Virus record (IMG/VR): IMGVR_UViG_3300009537_000206
Span: 1 to 21,721 of that record
DNA length: 21,721 nucleotides
From: a virus
Direction: 5' to 3' (one strand)
The position numbers and the translations under genes are program-made. Below the pieces are notes generated by a model. That model saw only the letters and a program-made list of their open reading frames with translations, was not told where the DNA came from and searched no databases. Positions 1,683 to 21,721 of this stretch are shown here, one piece after another (position 1 is the first letter of the stretch; every line of letters begins with the position of its first letter).

Positions 1683-3455
1683 TCAGATGAAATAGTGTCC
1701 AGAAAATTTAAGCATACCAGAGGCCCCGAAATCTGTAATGGAAACTGTTGTCGGACCTGTTGCTGAATCGTGTTCACGTATGTTGAAGTATGATGCTCCT
1801 AAATTTTCTATGGTCACGTTCTCACCCGCTGCGCCATTAGAAGTAATATTCCAGTCGGATACAGCAAATGCGCCCTCGCTTGCCACATCAGGGGCAAACG
1901 GAAAGTTCCCCAATCGTACTGTGTTCGCGCCGGCCAAGCTTCCAATACTTGTCAAGACAACATGACCTTCAACAAAAACCACATCTCCTATTCGAGTATA
2001 TCGACCATATTGCTTAGAATAGGTTTGACCCTCTGAACCGTTATTACTTTGATCCCATATTTCGGGGGTCCATGAACCTTCTTCGTAGTAATCAAGTTGA
2101 TCTGCGGCAGTAGGGACTGCAACGAAGGACAATGCTGAAACATCAAACACTTCGTTTTGATTCATATCCAGGCCGGTAGAATCAAAATGAGCAAGCTCGG
2201 TGCCAGTCCTGGAAGTTGTGCGGAATGAAACTCTGTTATCGGTCCATATAACCGTTTCGTTTGAAGAAATACCAATTCCATAAGTAGTACCGAATAGGAG
2301 AAGTTTATCTCCTACTTCATCTTCGAAATCGATCTGATCCCCAGCCCCCATGACAATATCGCCATTAAAGGTATTAGTAATACCATTGAAAGTAGAATTT
2401 CCGGAAATTGTTAAAGCACCAGTAGTCTGTAGATTCAGAGCACTGAAATTTGCCAAAGTACCGGTGATTTTAAGATGATTAGAATTTCCGATTCGGAAAG
2501 TCATTTCATCGATGGTATGGTCGTATAAAATTCCGCCAACAATTTCATTTTGGGGATCACCAAAGTTGATGCGACCTATACTGGTGTTCCCTGTCATGAG
2601 CGTAATACCCATATTGGCATCACGTTCAAAGAGCGCAATTGTAGAAGTTAAAGGTGAGGGTTCGGCTACATCTGAATTCCTTACATGAAGTTCAACCCCA
2701 TTGGGAGTAGAAACACCGATCGACGCAGCAGCAATGTTATTGATATTTTGAGCACCAACATCCCAACTTGCAGTTAACGCTGTCGAACCATCTCGCAATA
2801 CTACGTTGGAGTAGTTCGTCAGGTTAGCGATATTCAAAGCGGCTTCAAAATTGGCGAAGGTGATCTTCTGACTACCGGAGTCAGTAATGTCCACCATGGC
2901 GATAAAATCGCCTGCGGCAATTGCGGTTTCCGTACCAAGCTCATTGAGATCTACGGCCAGGCTGACATTGCCGTCGATGGTACCTCCACCTGAAAGTCCA
3001 TTGCCGGCAGTAATGGAGATGGATGAATGTGCCACATGTTCATCTGCCACTACGCCTGCCAAATTGGCATGGCTAATAGAACTTTCGAAGTTAGCAAAAG
3101 TGATTTTGCCACTGCCGTTATCAGTGATATCGACCATGGCAATGAAGTCACCAGTTGCAATGGCCGTTTCCGTGGTGAGTTCGTTCAGATCAACAGCCAG
3201 GCTGACATTGCCGTCAATAGTGCCGCCGCCGGATAGACCGACACCTGCTGTAATGGAAATGGAAGAGTGGGGAACGTGTTCATCCCCCACGAAACCAGTT
3301 AATGCATCGTGGTTAAGTGCGCCCTCAAGATCTGAAAATGCAATCTTTTTGTTCCGATCCGCAAGGGCGGGTTCAGAAATATCGACGATGGCAAGCAGGT
3401 CACCCGATGCTGGGGTGACCAGGCTTGCCATCCCGCTGATGGTAACGTCAGCCAT
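1683..3455 (-). CDS. Tail fibre-like protein with 80-residue repeats and a GSWTP-type C-terminal domain
   Basis: A 590-aa protein from ATG 3455. Residues about 11-215 hold two and a half copies of an exact 80-residue repeat; HSSISITAG starts at residues 63 and 143, each time followed by GLSGGG and IDGNVSLAVDLNEL. The middle (about 215-455) is Asn/Thr/Gly-rich beta sequence with a pattern common in trimeric phage fibres. The last 133 residues (458-590) begin with EEGSWTPEIW and contain YGRYTRIGDVVFVEG. This closely matches the widespread C-terminal domain of marine and environmental phage tail fibres, in which a G-T/S-W-T-P motif precedes a Y-x-R-I-G strand. I infer a receptor-facing fibre or spike. 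The start lies inside a perfect hairpin, described separately. No enzymatic motif was seen. Confidence 0.82.
   Translation of the reverse strand: MADVTISGMASLVTPASGDLLAIVDISEPALADRNKKIAFSDLEGALNHDALTGFVGDEHVPHSSISITAGVGLSGGGTIDGNVSLAVDLNELTTETAIATGDFIAMVDITDNGSGKITFANFESSISHANLAGVVADEHVAHSSISITAGNGLSGGGTIDGNVSLAVDLNELGTETAIAAGDFIAMVDITDSGSQKITFANFEAALNIANLTNYSNVVLRDGSTALTASWDVGAQNINNIAAASIGVSTPNGVELHVRNSDVAEPSPLTSTIALFERDANMGITLMTGNTSIGRINFGDPQNEIVGGILYDHTIDEMTFRIGNSNHLKITGTLANFSALNLQTTGALTISGNSTFNGITNTFNGDIVMGAGDQIDFEDEVGDKLLLFGTTYGIGISSNETVIWTDNRVSFRTTSRTGTELAHFDSTGLDMNQNEVFDVSALSFVAVPTAADQLDYYEEGSWTPEIWDQSNNGSEGQTYSKQYGRYTRIGDVVFVEGHVVLTSIGSLAGANTVRLGNFPFAPDVASEGAFAVSDWNITSNGAAGENVTIENLGASYFNIREHDSATGPTTVSITDFGASGMLKFSGHYFI
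2811..3425 (-). repeat. 240-bp in-frame tandem duplication inside the fibre gene
   Basis: Residues 94-173 and the following partial copy 174-215 repeat the preceding segment with an exact 80-residue period. Copies two and three share long identical peptide stretches, while the first copy is more diverged at its N-terminal side. This implies a relatively recent internal duplication of the fibre shaft. Confidence 0.85.
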
Positions 3456-15245: not shown

Positions 15246-15400
15246 AAGACAAGTTCCTGAAGTGGTACGTAAGTGCTTGGATACCCTGGATTGGAGGATC
15301 CAGAGCCAGGCTGTATCTGCACCTGTTCGTGGTGCGGCCTATTGTGACCCGTTGTGGGGTCACGTTCGATGACGTTGCAGAACATATCTGCAGGAGGTAG
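15242..15400 (+). CDS. Unknown 52-aa protein
   Basis: ATG 15242 overlaps the stop of the membrane protein gene (ATGA) and has AAGGAGG 7 nt upstream, which fixes this start; frames reading further upstream are not needed. The protein begins MKDKFLKWYVSAWIPWIGG, Trp-rich and possibly membrane-peripheral. It continues with a basic stretch (SRARLYLHLFVVRPIV), then GVTFDDVAEHICRR. There are two Cys but no metal motif. No family is recognised. Tight coupling to the membrane hairpin gene suggests the two products are made in a fixed ratio and may act together. Confidence 0.68.
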   Translation: MKDKFLKWYVSAWIPWIGGSRARLYLHLFVVRPIVTRCGVTFDDVAEHICRR

Positions 15401-15404
15401 TGAA

Positions 15405-15590
15405 ATGCAAGAGGTAGTTGAAAACGTACGGTACAAAGATTTGTGCCATGAGTACGACCAGGTGGAGGCAGATTTGCTGGTCGAAGAAGCCAAGGATCGA
15501 AATGATCCTTACCGTGTGGTAGTCATTGATGATTTGGAAAGCCGGTTGGCGTTCCTGTCAACTGAGATTGCCTGGATTATAGGAGGGTAG
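15405..15590 (+). CDS. Unknown acidic 61-aa protein
   Basis: I choose ATG 15405 because AGGAGG lies 7-12 nt before it. The protein is acidic and mostly helical: MQEVVENVRYKDLCHEYDQV and EADLLVEEAKDRNDPY, then a second helix VVVIDDLESRLAFLSTEIAWII. The helix pair with heptad-like hydrophobic positions suggests a dimerising coiled coil. No cysteine pair or catalytic motif is present. The gene is 4 nt after the stop of the 52-aa gene and 4 nt before the next ATG, so it is in the same operon. Function unknown; small acidic phage proteins can mimic DNA or inhibit host enzymes, but nothing here demonstrates that. Confidence 0.7.
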   Translation: MQEVVENVRYKDLCHEYDQVEADLLVEEAKDRNDPYRVVVIDDLESRLAFLSTEIAWIIGG

Positions 15591-15594
15591 TGAA

Positions 15595-15783
15595 ATGGCA
15601 AAGCAGTTTAAGCATAAGGTGGGCCGTGGCTCACTGTTTGAGTGCACCAAGAAGAAGAGCGAGGTGCGTTTCCATGGGGACATTCGTGTCTCCAAGAGGA
15701 AGACCGTGCGTGTCTTGGTGTATGACAACGATTCGGAGAACCCGATGGCACCGAAGTATAACGTTCAGGTCATTGATGGCTGA
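15595..15783 (+). CDS. Small basic protein with GSLF motif
   Basis: ATG 15595 is preceded by AGGAGG. The 62-aa protein begins MAKQFKHKVGRGSLFEC, then has a lysine stretch (CTKKKSEVRFHGDI) and beta strands ending in NVQVIDG. This resembles a common small phage and bacterial family in which G-x-G-S-L-F-x-N is followed by a charged loop and a three-strand beta sheet. Its members are mostly uncharacterised and sometimes compared to single-stranded nucleic-acid binding folds. The match is partial, because the usual Asn after GSLF is replaced here. The stop overlaps the next gene's ATG (TGATG). Confidence 0.7.
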   Translation: MAKQFKHKVGRGSLFECTKKKSEVRFHGDIRVSKRKTVRVLVYDNDSENPMAPKYNVQVIDG

Positions 15784-16977: not shown

Positions 16978-17148
16978 GCCCGTGTAAAGCTCCAAAATCA
17001 CTAAACCTTCTCATCAAAAAGTGTTTTCTTAGTGCTATTCCAGAACTTTAGCCATCGTTACATGGATATTCCATATAACGTGACTATATTATACTGGAAC
17101 GTAGGGGCTTGGTGGGGTATGGAATTCCCTGATTTCCAAGATATTCTC

Positions 17149-17177
17149 TGGAAATGACAGTTTAATTCAATTATAAT
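17149..17177 (+). promoter_or_regulatory. Candidate sigma70-type promoter
   Basis: TGGAAA (17149-17154) and a perfect TATAAT (17172-17177) are separated by 17 nt. The -35 matches 4 of 6 positions. It faces the repeat cluster and the 217-aa gene. The region is AT-rich, so chance matches are expected. Confidence 0.4.
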
Positions 17178-17230
17178 ATAATTCAATTACTTATCACTGC
17201 ATACACGAGTGTAAATGGCCCTTATCAACC

Positions 17231-17292
17231 CCTTAAAAACCCCTTAAAAACACCTTAAAAACAGCGGTAACACCTTAAAAAGTCACTTAAAA
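17231..17292. repeat. Iteron-like CCTTAAAAA direct repeats
   Basis: Four copies of CCTTAAAAA start at 17231, 17242, 17253 and 17273, and a shorter CTTAAAA starts at 17286. The CTT cores are 11, 11, 20 and 12 bp apart, so they lie nearly on one face of the helix. Each includes an A-tract, so the stretch may be bent. These are typical of binding sites for a repeated-site protein such as an initiator or repressor. Confidence 0.7.
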
Positions 17293-17384
17293 CAGTCATT
17301 GTTGTAAAATATCTCGCTTTTTATAGACTTTTTTCTACATATCATGAATTACTACTTCCCTTAAATATATATTTTTTATTAAAC

Positions 17385-17403
17385 TTACTCATATATTGAG
17401 TAA
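17385..17403. promoter_or_regulatory. 7-bp dyad, operator candidate
   Basis: TTACTCA (17385-17391) and TGAGTAA (17397-17403) form a perfect inverted repeat around TATAT. The size and symmetry suit a dimeric repressor site. It is about 110 bp before the next gene. Confidence 0.45.
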
Positions 17404-17458
17404 TTTAAATAAATCAAGATTTTTTAATGAAATACAGTATGTTATTTCGGATGATAAA

Positions 17459-17480
17459 GTTGTCTGGTTTACCCGACAAC
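17459..17480 (+). promoter_or_regulatory. Short hairpin in the leader of the 217-aa gene
   Basis: GTTGTC (17459-17464) pairs with GACAAC (17475-17480) over 10 nt. It is followed by a C-rich stretch, then AAGGTAAGTG before the ATG at 17512. Probably a leader structure; function unknown. Confidence 0.4.
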
Positions 17481-17511
17481 CCCCGTAACCCCCACCATTT
17501 GAAGGTAAGTG

Positions 17512-18165
17512 ATGCGCCAACACATTGATTCCATCGCAGAAATCGATTTTTTCGATTTTCCGTATTTTACTGTGAAGTCAGTCCAGAAAGACTCGCCTCT
17601 TTACACTACTTTTTATGCAGACTTGCTGCAACAATACCTGGCTGAAGTCCATTTGATTAGCGATGGACATAACCCACTCCCACCGCGATATGGTGAATGC
17701 CGGGTTAGCGATCATGAAATTTATTACCATCGATATCGTTCCCGCATTCCAGCTCAATATTTAAGCTTTATACTGGGACACCCCGATGTAGTTGCTGATT
17801 TATTGAAAGCTCGAGCATTCAATCGCCTCACTTTTCAAACTTTGTGTGGACGCCAGGCGTGCGTCCACCCACTTCATATCAAGTGCTTCCAAGATCCGGC
17901 TTGGCACCCTGAACCGCCACAACCGAGAGTGCGGCGTCTGGGCCGTATCAATGATGATTGGCTTACGTATCCTGAACTGAAGCGCCTTGAATTCATCATG
18001 ACTTCGACTTATACCAAGGACCTTTCTGATGTGGTTGCCGAATTCGCCAACCGCATCGCGGTGTCCTTTTCAACAGTCGTTTCAACTTGGAATACGCTGG
18101 TGACACTACACCGTAGGCGTTTCCATGAATCATTTGTTGTAATGGGAAAATATGAACGGAGGTAA
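17512..18165 (+). CDS. Putative DNA-binding protein with degenerate His-Me/HNH-like zinc motif
   Basis: I choose ATG 17512 (217 aa), with AAGG 7-10 nt upstream, over the adjoining GTG. Residues about 112-125 read CGRQACVHPLHIKC. This recalls the C-G-x-x-x-C-x-N-P-x-H-L zinc loop of HNH/His-Me finger nucleases. The Asn is replaced by His, the following G-T is absent, and the usual catalytic His just before the first Cys is replaced by Leu. An upstream YYHRYRSRIP (about 71-80) may be the matching beta strand. The C-terminal 60 residues (LTYPELKRLEFIM, then DVVAEFANRIAVSFSTVVSTW and a basic HRRRF) look like a helix-turn-helix. I infer a DNA-binding protein, perhaps an inactivated nuclease or a regulator of the adjoining repeat region. 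Confidence 0.6.
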   Translation: MRQHIDSIAEIDFFDFPYFTVKSVQKDSPLYTTFYADLLQQYLAEVHLISDGHNPLPPRYGECRVSDHEIYYHRYRSRIPAQYLSFILGHPDVVADLLKARAFNRLTFQTLCGRQACVHPLHIKCFQDPAWHPEPPQPRVRRLGRINDDWLTYPELKRLEFIMTSTYTKDLSDVVAEFANRIAVSFSTVVSTWNTLVTLHRRRFHESFVVMGKYERR

Positions 18166-19154: not shown

Positions 19155-19237
19155 TAACCATTCGGAAAGCTCGCTAAGGGTCGGTATCAGGTGGCGTGTT
19201 ATTCCATGCTTTTGGTTCTACGCGGGGAAATGCTGAC

Positions 19238-19309
19238 ATGAAAGCCTGGCACTTTTCAAATATCGAACATCGCCTATACCGCATGATTATGCAGAGGAAG
19301 ATGAAATGA
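19238..19309 (+). CDS. 23-aa coupled leader reading frame
   Basis: ATG 19238 has CGGGGAA about 9-15 nt upstream and the frame stops with a TGA at 19307-19309 that overlaps the ATG of the next gene (ATGA). The peptide starts MKAWHFSNIEHR and is basic at its end, where AGAGGAAG codes part of the C-terminus and also serves as ribosome binding site for the next gene. Probably a coupling leader; protein function not supported. Confidence 0.35.
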   Translation: MKAWHFSNIEHRLYRMIMQRKMK

Positions 19310-19812
19310 CTCTTAGACTACAACTACAAGAAATGAACGCCTGCCCCGGCGCGGTGAAGTGGGTAGGCAACAAGACCATTAAAGGCGCGTGGAACCAATG
19401 CAATCGCGGCGATTGGATGTTGTGGCTACTCGAAATGTTGCGATGGGACCGCAAGGTGTTGGCCTCGATTGCCTGCGATTGCGCTGAAAGGGTTTTACAT
19501 CTGGTCCTCGAAGGTGAGGACCACTCCCGCAAAGCTATCGAAACGCGCAGGGCTTGGGTGCGCGGCGAGGCCACCGAGGAAGATTGCCGCAAGGCCGCGA
19601 GGGCCGTAGACGACGGCGCGGGGGTCGCCGCATATGCCGCACGGTCTGCCGCATATGCCGCCGCATGGTCCACATCGTGGGCCGCATGGGCCGCATCGTG
19701 GGTTGCAAGGGTCGCATTGGACGCAGAGGGCGCGGAACGCAAAGCCCAAGCCGACATTATTCGCCGATACGTCACCTGGCAAGAAGTGCGTGATGCGTTG
19801 GAGGCGGCATGA
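19306..19812 (+). CDS. Imm5-like (putative immunity) Ala-rich protein
   Basis: A 168-aa protein from ATG 19306. NACPGAVKWV, GAWNQCNRGDWMLWLL (residues 28-42) and the following CDCAERVLHLVL (58-69) match the pattern of the family annotated as putative immunity protein (Imm5-type). In it, A-C-x-x-A and A-W-x-x-C-x-R-G-D-W-x-L-W recur. AIETRRAWVRGEATEEDCRKAARA (about 77-100) is also typical. Residues about 104-145 form an Ala/Trp-rich low-complexity stretch made from short GCCGCATRTG-type DNA repeats. The C-terminus ends in a helix with ADIIRRYVTWQEVRDAL. Family members are found next to polymorphic toxins; no toxin is visible here. The ATGA overlap with the pentapeptide gene implies a coordinated pair. 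Confidence 0.72.
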   Translation: MTLRLQLQEMNACPGAVKWVGNKTIKGAWNQCNRGDWMLWLLEMLRWDRKVLASIACDCAERVLHLVLEGEDHSRKAIETRRAWVRGEATEEDCRKAARAVDDGAGVAAYAARSAAYAAAWSTSWAAWAASWVARVALDAEGAERKAQADIIRRYVTWQEVRDALEAA

Positions 19813-20522
19813 AACCTACCGAACTCAAAAAAATCCTGAATGAACACGCCAAGTGGTTGGGCGGAGCTGGTGGCGCGCGCGCGTACCTTCGGGGCGCGAA
19901 CCTTCAGGACACGAACCTTCAGGGCGCAAACCTTCAGGGCGCAAACCTTCAGGACGCGGACCTTCGGGACGCGGACCTTCGGGACGCGGACCTTCAGAAC
20001 GCGAACCTTCGGGGTGCGGACCTTCAGGACTCGAACCTTCGGGGCTCGGACCTTCGGGACTCGGACCTTCGGGGCGCGGACCTTCGGGACTCGGACCTTC
20101 AGAATGCAAACCTTCAGGGTTCGAACCTTCAGAACGCGTACCTTGCGGGCTCGGACCTTCGGGGCTCGGACCTAACAAACGCAAAACTCCCGCATTTCCA
20201 AATCCCGCAGGAAGGCGGCTTGACCGTCTGGAAGGCTGGGTCTGACGGATGTGTTATCAAGCTGTACATTCCCGCCGCTGCCAAGCGCACCGCATCATTG
20301 ATAGGGCGCAAGTGCCGCGCAGAATACGTCAAAGTGCTGGCAATTTTCGACTGTGACGGGAGGCCGGAAGCTGAGTGCATGGGTTGGTTTCCTGATATTG
20401 GTTTTGTCTACCGCGTGGGCGAAACCGTCCATCCCGATAAGTATGACGATGATATTCGCGTGGAATGCTCACACGGCATCCATTTTTTCCTAACCCGCGA
20501 GGAAGCGGAGGAATGGGGCTGA
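19809..20522 (+). CDS. Pentapeptide-repeat protein with DUF5758-type C-terminal domain
   Basis: A 237-aa protein whose ATG overlaps the previous stop as ATGA. The N-terminus MKPTELKKILNEHAKWLGG is the usual cap of phage pentapeptide proteins. Residues 25-127 hold about 21 consecutive A(D/N)L(R/Q)x pentapeptides, which fold as a right-handed quadrilateral beta-helix in known structures. Residues about 130-237 contain VIKLYIPAAAKRTASLIGRK, then CRAEYVKVL, and end GIHFFLTREEAEEWG. This matches the DUF5758 pattern (K-x-x-I-P-x-x-A-K-R-T, C-R-A-E-x-A/V-K-V, G-x-H-F-F-x-T-R-E-E-A). Some pentapeptide proteins mimic DNA and protect gyrase, but that role is not established for this architecture. Confidence 0.85.
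   Translation: MKPTELKKILNEHAKWLGGAGGARAYLRGANLQDTNLQGANLQGANLQDADLRDADLRDADLQNANLRGADLQDSNLRGSDLRDSDLRGADLRDSDLQNANLQGSNLQNAYLAGSDLRGSDLTNAKLPHFQIPQEGGLTVWKAGSDGCVIKLYIPAAAKRTASLIGRKCRAEYVKVLAIFDCDGRPEAECMGWFPDIGFVYRVGETVHPDKYDDDIRVECSHGIHFFLTREEAEEWG
19881..20189 (+). repeat. 15-bp coding tandem repeat (pentapeptide array)
   Basis: About 21 units of 15 bp, most with the core ACCTTC followed by GGG or AGG codons, encode the pentapeptides. Leucine is almost always CTT and the next codon almost always CGG or CAG, so the DNA is far more uniform than the protein needs. This points to recent expansion by slippage or recombination. All frames are open through it, which creates shadow reading frames on both strands. 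Confidence 0.9.
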
Positions 20523-20553
20523 GGGGGTAATGAAACAGGAGTTGCTGGTATGA
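20512..20553 (+). promoter_or_regulatory. Duplicated leader, copy 1, with 7-codon mini-ORF
   Basis: This 42-bp segment matches the one at 21093-21134 at 37 of 42 positions. It includes the pentapeptide gene stop, a GAGGGGG ribosome binding site (20521-20527) and a mini-ORF MKQELLV (20530-20553) whose TGA overlaps the next gene's ATG (ATGA). GGAG inside the mini-ORF also lies 8 nt before that ATG. Confidence 0.7.
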
Positions 20554-20879
20554 CCGACATAACCAAGCTGCCCGACAGGTGGCGCACAGGCAAGCCCGTT
20601 CGTGATGATGAGCGATACGAGATACAAGGATATGACGCTTATTCTTCCGAAGAATGCGCCGATCAACTAGAGGCCGCACTGCCGAAGTGGACTGAAATCA
20701 CCGATGACCCGACCACGTGGCCGAAGGCGGGTGTATGGGTAATTATTTTTAGAAGTCAATTTCCATGTACTACAACCATTAACCACGAATGGCTAGAGCG
20801 CGGTGATTATGTCGGCAACTACTGGCGGCCTTTAATCCCCGGCCTCGACACACCGCCGCAGGAGGATAATGATGAGTAA
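20550..20879 (+). CDS. DUF551-like small phage protein, 109 aa
   Basis: ATG 20550 overlaps the stop of the upstream mini-ORF and has CAGGAG 8-13 nt upstream. Residues 1-45 are polar and helical. Residues about 47-95 read WTEITDDPTTWPKAGVWVII, then a variable part, and WLERGDYVGNYWRPL. This has the pattern W-x-x-I-x-D-x-P-x-x-x-P-x-x-G-x-x-V ... V-x-x-W-x-P-L of the DUF551 domain common in phage and prophage accessory regions. Function of that domain is unknown. The 3' end overlaps the next gene by 8-11 nt. Confidence 0.7.
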   Translation: MTDITKLPDRWRTGKPVRDDERYEIQGYDAYSSEECADQLEAALPKWTEITDDPTTWPKAGVWVIIFRSQFPCTTTINHEWLERGDYVGNYWRPLIPGLDTPPQEDNDE

Positions 20880-21063
20880 ATACCGCGTTGTTTCCAAACC
20901 CGACCTTCCAGCATCCCCCTGGGACGACGATTTCGATGATGCCAAGAGGCTAGAGTGGTGGCTGAACAGCATGCACGAGTCCGAGTGGGAGCTGGTGGCG
21001 GTCCTGCCAGATAAAGACTGGTGGATATTTCGGACGATTGACGATGGTGGAGAGTTACTGTGA
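20872..21063 (+). CDS. Unknown 63-aa acidic protein
   Basis: Two adjoining ATGs (20869 and 20872) follow AGGAGG (20860-20865). The second has the better 6-nt spacing, so I use it. The protein starts MSKYRVVSKPDLPASPWDDD, then has a helical part (DAKRLEWWLNSMHESEWEL) and a strand pair (LVAVLPDKDWWIFRTI). It is acidic and Trp-rich, and resembles short phage proteins of the type W-E-L-V-x-V...W-x-I-F-R-R/T, whose role is unknown. Its stop overlaps a GTG start as GTGA. Confidence 0.68.
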   Translation: MSKYRVVSKPDLPASPWDDDFDDAKRLEWWLNSMHESEWELVAVLPDKDWWIFRTIDDGGELL

Positions 21064-21134
21064 AGGACATTGAGTACAGCCTCCGCGCCGGGATTGGGGC
21101 TGAGGGGGTAATGGAGCTGGAGTTGCTGGTGTGA
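21060..21134 (+). CDS. 24-aa coupled micro-ORF containing leader copy 2
   Basis: GTG 21060 overlaps the previous stop (GTGA) and the frame stops at 21134, overlapping the next GTG start by four nt. It begins MKDIEYSLRAGIG (with GTG read as Met) and ends MELELLV, the in-frame mini-ORF of the duplicated leader. It may be a remnant gene or a pure coupling device. Confidence 0.4.
   Translation: MKDIEYSLRAGIGAEGVMELELLV
21093..21134 (+). promoter_or_regulatory. Duplicated leader, copy 2, with 7-codon mini-ORF
   Basis: This copy shares GGGGCTGAGGGGGTAATG and GGAGTTGCTGGT with copy 1 and has 5 differences in 42. The mini-ORF is MELELLV (21111-21134); its TGA overlaps a GTG start instead of ATG (GTGA). 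The first 20 bases differ at one position only. Confidence 0.7.
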
Positions 21135-21475
21135 GCGTGAAATCCTACTCGTACCCAATAAACCCAGCGCACTCCACTGTTTCGGGCTATACGGCCACAT
21201 CCAAGTATGGGCGCAAGCTATGGAATGAACTCGACTGGCGCGGGGTCTGGTTGGATGGCGGCGCACACATGTTCAATCCGTGCGGCGGGGAGTACCTGCA
21301 TGTGCGCGTACGCTATGACCCTGACCTGGACGGGTGGAGGTTGCGGGAGAGGCGGTGGTTCAGAGTGCGGTGCCGACATGAGATAGGCACGCGGTGGCGG
21401 GGCGGGACGGTGGTGGACGTTCGGGCAATCAAGGGCCGCGCCGCTGATTGGCGGTGGGTGGTGCTTGTTTCGTAA
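21131..21475 (+). CDS. Unknown 114-aa basic protein with GTG start
   Basis: Starts with GTG 21131, overlapping the mini-ORF stop; the GGAG of the leader lies 8 nt upstream. The protein MSVKSYSYPINPAHSTVSGY has a beta-type, Trp- and Arg-rich body (LWNELDWRGVWLDGG, LDGWRLRERRWFRVRCRHEIG) and ends VVLVS. There are two Cys, not a metal motif. GC content is high, and Trp and Arg are abundant. No family recognised. The stop overlaps a following 16-codon frame as TAATG. Confidence 0.62.
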   Translation: MSVKSYSYPINPAHSTVSGYTATSKYGRKLWNELDWRGVWLDGGAHMFNPCGGEYLHVRVRYDPDLDGWRLRERRWFRVRCRHEIGTRWRGGTVVDVRAIKGRAADWRWVVLVS

Positions 21476-21525
21476 TGAACGGATGGATTTGGTTGGTGAA
21501 ATGGATGGAGCGCGAAGATGCCTGA
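21475..21525 (+). CDS. 16-aa micro-ORF between coupled genes
   Basis: ATG 21475 shares its A with the previous TAA (TAATG) and the frame MNGWIWLVKWMEREDA stops at 21525, 8 nt inside the next gene. Its 3' part contains GGAGCGCGAAG, the ribosome binding region of the next gene. Probably a coupling spacer, like the other mini-ORFs of this operon. Confidence 0.3.
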   Translation: MNGWIWLVKWMEREDA

Positions 21526-21721
21526 ACAACCCCGCTGGCTGGTCATGCCGTCCCTGCCGCTCAAGGCCCACCTATGGCGCTACACCCACGACCAAGCCGG
21601 CGGCAGGCAGCACCTGTCCGCTTGCCTGCTGTGGGCGGCGCTGCGGGGCGATGAACAGCCGCTGGACGTGGAGCGGCCCAGGTGTGGGAATTGCAGACGG
21701 AAGGAGAATGACGATGAGTGA
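21518..21721 (+). CDS. Unknown 67-aa protein
   Basis: ATG 21518 has GGAG 10-13 nt upstream. The peptide MPEQPRWLVMPSLPLKAHLW is followed by a helical part with HLSACLLWAALRG and a CGNC knuckle near the end (about residues 56-59), then a charged tail (RRKENDDE). One CxxC plus His and another Cys could make a small zinc site, but this is uncertain. The stop TGA is the last three bases of the window. AAGGAG inside its end would serve the next gene. Confidence 0.6.
   Translation: MPEQPRWLVMPSLPLKAHLWRYTHDQAGGRQHLSACLLWAALRGDEQPLDVERPRCGNCRRKENDDE
21708..21721 (+). CDS. Start of a further gene, cut by the window edge
   Basis: AAGGAG (21701-21706) is followed by ATG at 21708 and, in frame, ATG at 21714. 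The second has 7-nt spacing and so is the likelier start. Only the first few codons are inside the window. The layout copies the GGAGG-ATGATGAGT junction at 20860-20877. Confidence 0.4.

Follow-up and report, generated by a model that had tools for sequence, protein, structure and literature searches.

A duplicated gene junction with the features of a coupled leader in a compact viral operon

Described coupled leaders and the viral locus

This study concerns a short sequence that occurs twice in the viral contig IMGVR_UViG_3300009537_000206; the window analysed is the whole contig, 21,721 bases in length. Each copy combines a Shine-Dalgarno (SD) sequence with a seven-codon mini open reading frame (mini-ORF) whose stop codon overlaps the start of the next gene. 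Comparable arrangements are used in biotechnology, where bicistronic designs have a second SD located inside the leader. Short upstream ORFs that deliver ribosomes have been reviewed (PMC12548453), and the first-pass annotation of the contig, which held that nothing like the element had been described, was wrong on this point. Its precedents are the mycobacterial interspersed repetitive units (MIRUs), the integron ORF-11, the start-associated sequences (SAS) of mycobacteriophages and the leaders of bicistronic designs.

MIRUs (Supply et al. 1997, described in PMC12548453) are likewise short repeats that lie where genes meet and contain a small ORF, which a -4 nt overlap couples to the gene downstream (PMC12548453). 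They differ from the present repeat in occurring in many mycobacteria and in being apparently mobile, whereas only two copies in one viral contig were found here; a relaxed form of the motif matched no mycobacterial genome among 84,980 species genomes, a comparison made with the motif and not by alignment of the MIRU sequences themselves. The SAS of Cluster K mycobacteriophages are also repeated phage sequences with an SD core that precede the starts of unrelated non-structural genes (PMC3203893). However, SAS are 13-bp elements (GGGATAGGAGCCC) located 3-7 bp before start codons, in 11-19 copies per genome and without a mini-ORF (PMC3203893), while the contig carries a 45-bp unit of different sequence in two copies.

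The attI1 site of class 1 integrons contains ORF-11, a very short ORF that has a GGAG of its own and raises the translation of whatever gene follows; substitutions in its peptide have little effect (PMC8876359). Unlike the viral repeat, ORF-11 is linked to integrase recombination, and it is the incoming cassette that provides its stop (PMC8876359); no integrase was found among the ten proteins scanned, a part of those encoded by the contig, and no integron features were identified. In bicistronic designs and two-cistron expression, a leader cistron has an SD and terminates at the main start or across it, and so delivers ribosomes (PMC12548453); these leaders are engineered, whereas the contig's case would be natural. 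Judged by analogy, the repeat appears to work like MIRU, SAS and ORF-11 as a short coupled leader, and not as a tested member of any of these families.

The two copies and their anatomy

Ungapped alignment of positions 20510-20556 with 21091-21137 revealed 41 identical bases out of 47 (87%) at a spacing of 581. The two sites 581 bp apart with 37 of 42 shared bases reported in the first-pass annotation were thus recovered on recomputation, the 42-nt unit that begins at 20515 giving 37/42. By comparison, the 42-nt self-match maximum did not exceed 28 in 200 dinucleotide shuffles of 20187-21721, or 29 in shuffles of the whole window (n=8). The contig contains the core pattern exactly twice, against none expected (100 shuffles), even with three mismatches allowed, and no third copy was found. 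Identity ends sharply on both sides, the sequence at 20441-20509 and that past about 20557 being at background level against their counterparts. The parts of the two copies, all on the plus strand, are as follows.

20510-20556, plus strand: repeat copy 1, 47 nt; its core at 20515-20556 matches copy 2 at 37/42 bases
20521-20527, plus strand: Shine-Dalgarno sequence GAGGGGG of mini-ORF 1; predicted pairing -10.6 kcal/mol; overlaps the TGA of the upstream gene
20530-20553, plus strand: putative mini-ORF 1, MKQELLV; evidence, reading frame only
20538-20541, plus strand: internal GGAG for the 109-codon gene; predicted pairing -6.9 kcal/mol, 8-nt spacer
21060-21134, plus strand: longer 24-codon ORF, VKDIEYSLRAGIGAEGVMELELLV, that encloses mini-ORF 2 in frame; GTGA overlap at both ends
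21091-21137, plus strand: repeat copy 2, 47 nt
21102-21108, plus strand: Shine-Dalgarno sequence GAGGGGG of mini-ORF 2; predicted pairing -10.6 kcal/mol
21111-21134, plus strand: putative mini-ORF 2, MELELLV; evidence, reading frame
21119-21122, plus strand: internal GGAG for the 114-codon gene; predicted pairing -5.9 kcal/mol

The SD strengths listed are predicted pairing energies with the anti-SD. Both copies contain the arrangement described at first pass, namely GAGGGGG, a seven-codon mini-ORF, an internal GGAG and a TGA that overlaps the next start. The mini-ORFs start with the ATG at 20530 in copy 1 and the ATG at 21111 in copy 2, and end in 4-nt stop/start overlaps, ATGA at 20550 and GTGA at 21131, respectively. 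After GAGGGGG, copy 1 reads ATG AAA CAG GAG TTG CTG GTA TGA, the final ATGA opening the 109-codon gene; copy 2 reads GAGGGGGTA ATG GAG CTG GAG TTG CTG GTG TGA, the GTGA opening the 114-codon gene. Among the six differences over 47 nt, one lies to the left of the core and three lie in codons 2 and 3 of the mini-ORF, where they change the encoded amino acids (K/E and Q/L); the remaining two are at the next start (ATG/GTG) and at one position just past it. Both SDs, the mini-ORF start and the mini-ORF stop are identical between the copies.

Analysis of the upstream sequence revealed that the frame of mini-ORF 2 is open as far as the GTG at 21060, which has its own SD (-6.4 kcal/mol) and overlaps the TGA of a 64-codon gene, so that copy 2 has an upstream overlap as well if this GTG is used as a start. 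The natural ORF at copy 2 may therefore be one of 24 codons, with mini-ORF 2 forming its 3' end. No comparable upstream extension is present in copy 1, and the distance between TGA triplets is 31 nt in the copy 1 unit versus 71 nt in the copy 2 unit.

Coupling and its alternatives

Each copy, about 45 nt long, begins where one reading frame ends, or in the gap that follows, and reaches into the opening codons of the next gene. The strong SD, the mini-ORF, the internal SD, the stop-start overlap and the unrelated downstream proteins together give good support to the translational coupling that had been suggested from the sequence. We consider it reasonably probable that the repeat arose by local duplication of a junction for translation initiation and coupling, within a compact, tightly overlapping phage operon. 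Such junctions are ordinary in densely packed phage operons. This account is also favoured by a similarity between the copies far beyond that of shuffles, by differences that spare both SDs and the start and stop of the mini-ORF, by the overlaps at the neighbouring junctions and by the occurrence of the motif's halves at coupled junctions in other viral contigs. At such a junction, ribosomes would load or re-initiate at the mini-ORF by means of GAGGGGG and read its seven codons (24 if the longer frame of copy 2 is used). Termination at the TGA would be followed by re-initiation on the overlapping ATG or GTG with the aid of GGAG. We infer that the mini-ORF is translated and that the next gene would depend on it for its supply of ribosomes, the peptide itself being of little importance. 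A short recombination or duplication event would have produced one copy from the other, and the derived copy is probably copy 1, since it joins the end of a DUF5758 gene at its left edge whereas copy 2 lies within the longer open frame.

Several observations weigh against this interpretation. Shuffled versions of gap 1 contain a mini-ORF with its stop across the next start in 39% of cases, and 41% of shuffled gap 2 sequences contain a bridging ORF, so that the 24-codon ORF alone is not significant. Because gap shuffles yield such frames readily, the reading frames by themselves are weak evidence of translation. Furthermore, with two copies only, selection on the control signals is inseparable from a recent duplication, and RNA folding revealed no unusual structure for translation of the mini-ORF to open (z 1.7 and -0.4). 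Bridging mini-ORFs as a sign of design were considered and dropped, as they are mostly not significant against shuffles; the frequency in shuffles of 21475-21518 was 0.04. Scans for Rfam families and tRNAs found nothing.

The genes that flank the two copies are listed below.

19809-20522, plus strand: gene upstream of copy 1, pentapeptide repeats and DUF5758 (Pfam PF00805, PF19062); its stop is inside the repeat
20550-20879, plus strand: gene downstream of copy 1, 109 aa; no known family
20869-21063, plus strand: gene upstream of copy 2, 64 codons; no known family; overlaps the preceding gene
21131-21475, plus strand: gene downstream of copy 2, 114 aa, GTG start; no known family

The stop of the pentapeptide/DUF5758 gene is supplied by copy 1 (TGG GGC TGA). 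Homologous DUF5758 genes end in ...EEW or EQW or two residues further, and the left edge of copy 1 is for this reason placed at the end of the DUF5758 gene. Consistent with the first-pass statement that the unit precedes genes with unrelated products, the 109-aa and 114-aa proteins are unrelated to each other, and neither could be assigned to a known family or matched to a relative in the collections searched. No relatives of these two proteins or of the terminase were found in viral contigs by a search that needs exact 8-residue words. Duplication of the whole segment was ruled out, as the flanks and the downstream proteins are unrelated, and a leader tied to DUF5758 genes was rejected, as no leader follows the DUF5758 relatives in L003-L005. 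Within the same upstream gene, a 15-nt repeat in seventeen registers (19837-20218) encodes the pentapeptide-repeat domain that is joined to the DUF5758 domain.

The repeat could instead be a recombination scar or linker, that is, a shared boundary for the gain or loss of the 109-aa and 64-aa genes, with a translational content that is incidental and comes from an ordinary junction. The homology ends at gene boundaries, with no relation between the flanking genes; the pentapeptide gene takes its stop from the repeat; and the block from about 19.2 kb differs in base composition (GC about 0.57 versus 0.45 before), which suggests acquired genes. However, a relative with the segment missing or rearranged was not found, 42 bp is short for efficient homologous recombination, and a scar is in any case compatible with a coupling function; we regard this explanation as unlikely. 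A regulatory site acting at the DNA level, such as a promoter or operator that is read once ahead of each set of genes, would agree with two copies in the same orientation just upstream of genes. It is improbable, given that the repeat directly adjoins the start codon, with no space for the usual leader, that the conserved blocks fall on the SD, start and stop, and that no sigma-70-like promoter or terminator is predicted in either copy, the regional numbers being at shuffle level.

The first-pass annotation also proposed a mobile or modular cassette that may help phages to add accessory genes. Such a cassette in wide use by phages found no support, as no further copies occur in any collection searched, the outcome that the annotation had itself named as refuting. 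Two whole-motif patterns, one of them with variable mini-ORF length, gave 0 matches in 2.9 million viral contigs. The variable-length pattern gave one match in the species genomes, intergenic in a verrucomicrobial metagenome-assembled genome; this match was judged to be chance and rejected as a cassette copy, since it lies off any gene junction and about one is expected by estimate. A BLAST search of the region against 50,697 phage records gave no match, the 47-mers gave only partial matches of 19-29 nt in phage records (E about 1 or worse), and matches in plasmid records were equally weak, none above chance.

When the halves of the motif were searched separately, one and two viral loci were found, approximately the number expected by chance by estimate. 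All three loci (L009, L010 and L011) are at genuine-looking gene junctions: in L010 and L011, GGAGTTGCTGGTATGAGCG ends the upstream frame in ...ELLV* and its ATGA starts the next gene, and in L009, GGGGCTGAGGGGGTAATG is at a TAATG junction. These loci are better read as independent solutions, that is, convergent coupling signals, than as relatives, because sequences of this kind are what results when a good SD is placed at the right distance within a gene's last codons.

An element of the MIRU type, a short ORF-bearing sequence that inserts into stop-start overlaps and preserves coupling, is accordingly quite improbable: there are just two copies, in one contig, and none elsewhere in viral contigs or species genomes; the units are unequal (31 versus 71 nt between TGA triplets); no empty site was found; and 4-nt overlaps are common at phage junctions in any case. 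An argument from empty sites, in which deletion from TGA to TGA restores an ATGA or GTGA junction, was dropped because it holds for almost any segment between such stops. Close relatives of the virus were not found, and the absence of copies elsewhere therefore leaves room for a lineage-restricted element; nevertheless, a MIRU-like element that is carried by phages of a poorly sampled lineage, spreads from one stop-start junction to another and enables the translation of inserted accessory genes is very improbable. Equally so is the reading of the 24-codon ORF as a functional small protein gene with copy 1 as its truncated remnant, which the open frame from GTG 21060, its SD and its overlaps on both sides would allow but which is opposed by the lack of a relative by tblastn in phages or in PHROGs and Pfam, by the 41% of shuffles with a bridging ORF and by amino acid changes at two of the seven shared codons.

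Operon context and significance

Analysis of the surrounding junctions revealed ATGA at 19306 (from a 23-codon ORF at 19238) and at 19809, ATGATGAGTAA at 20869, GTGA at 21060, TAATG at 21475 (a 16-codon ORF) and an 8-nt overlap at 21518. As all other junctions from 19.3 kb on are overlaps, the repeat is one case of the general style of the operon. Two further mini-ORFs, at 19238-19309 (MKAWHFSNIEHRLYRMIMQRKMK) and 21475-21525 (MNGWIWLVKWMEREDA), run into the start of the gene that follows, and the latter also overlaps the preceding stop (TAATG). At 19.2 kb, where a run of small overlapping genes of mostly unknown family begins (19200-21721), GC rises from about 0.45 to about 0.57, and this block is likely to consist of acquired accessory genes.

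Other repeats are present in the contig. Iteron-like copies of AACMCCTTAAAAAC at 11-nt spacing occur at 17216-17295, the stretch that follows is A+T-rich (GC about 0.39 over 17001-18000), and this region is a possible replication origin. Two similar initiation regions, GCAGGAGGTAGTGAAATG at 15385-15407 and TAGGAGGGTAGTGAAATG at 15578-15597, have the stops TAG and TGA just before the next ATG. A 207-nt direct duplication (2844-3290, 72% alike) inside the minus-strand gene at 1683-3455 encodes a repeated SISITAGxGLSGGGTIDGNVSLAVDLNEL module, and a 72-nt tandem repeat at 143-527, close to the left contig end, is probably part of a gene truncated there.

As seen so far, the duplicated junction is a local two-copy case with described precedents. 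If its mini-ORFs feed the next gene, it would be a natural counterpart of the bicistronic leaders of biotechnology and would represent one route by which phages could attach orphan genes to an operon.
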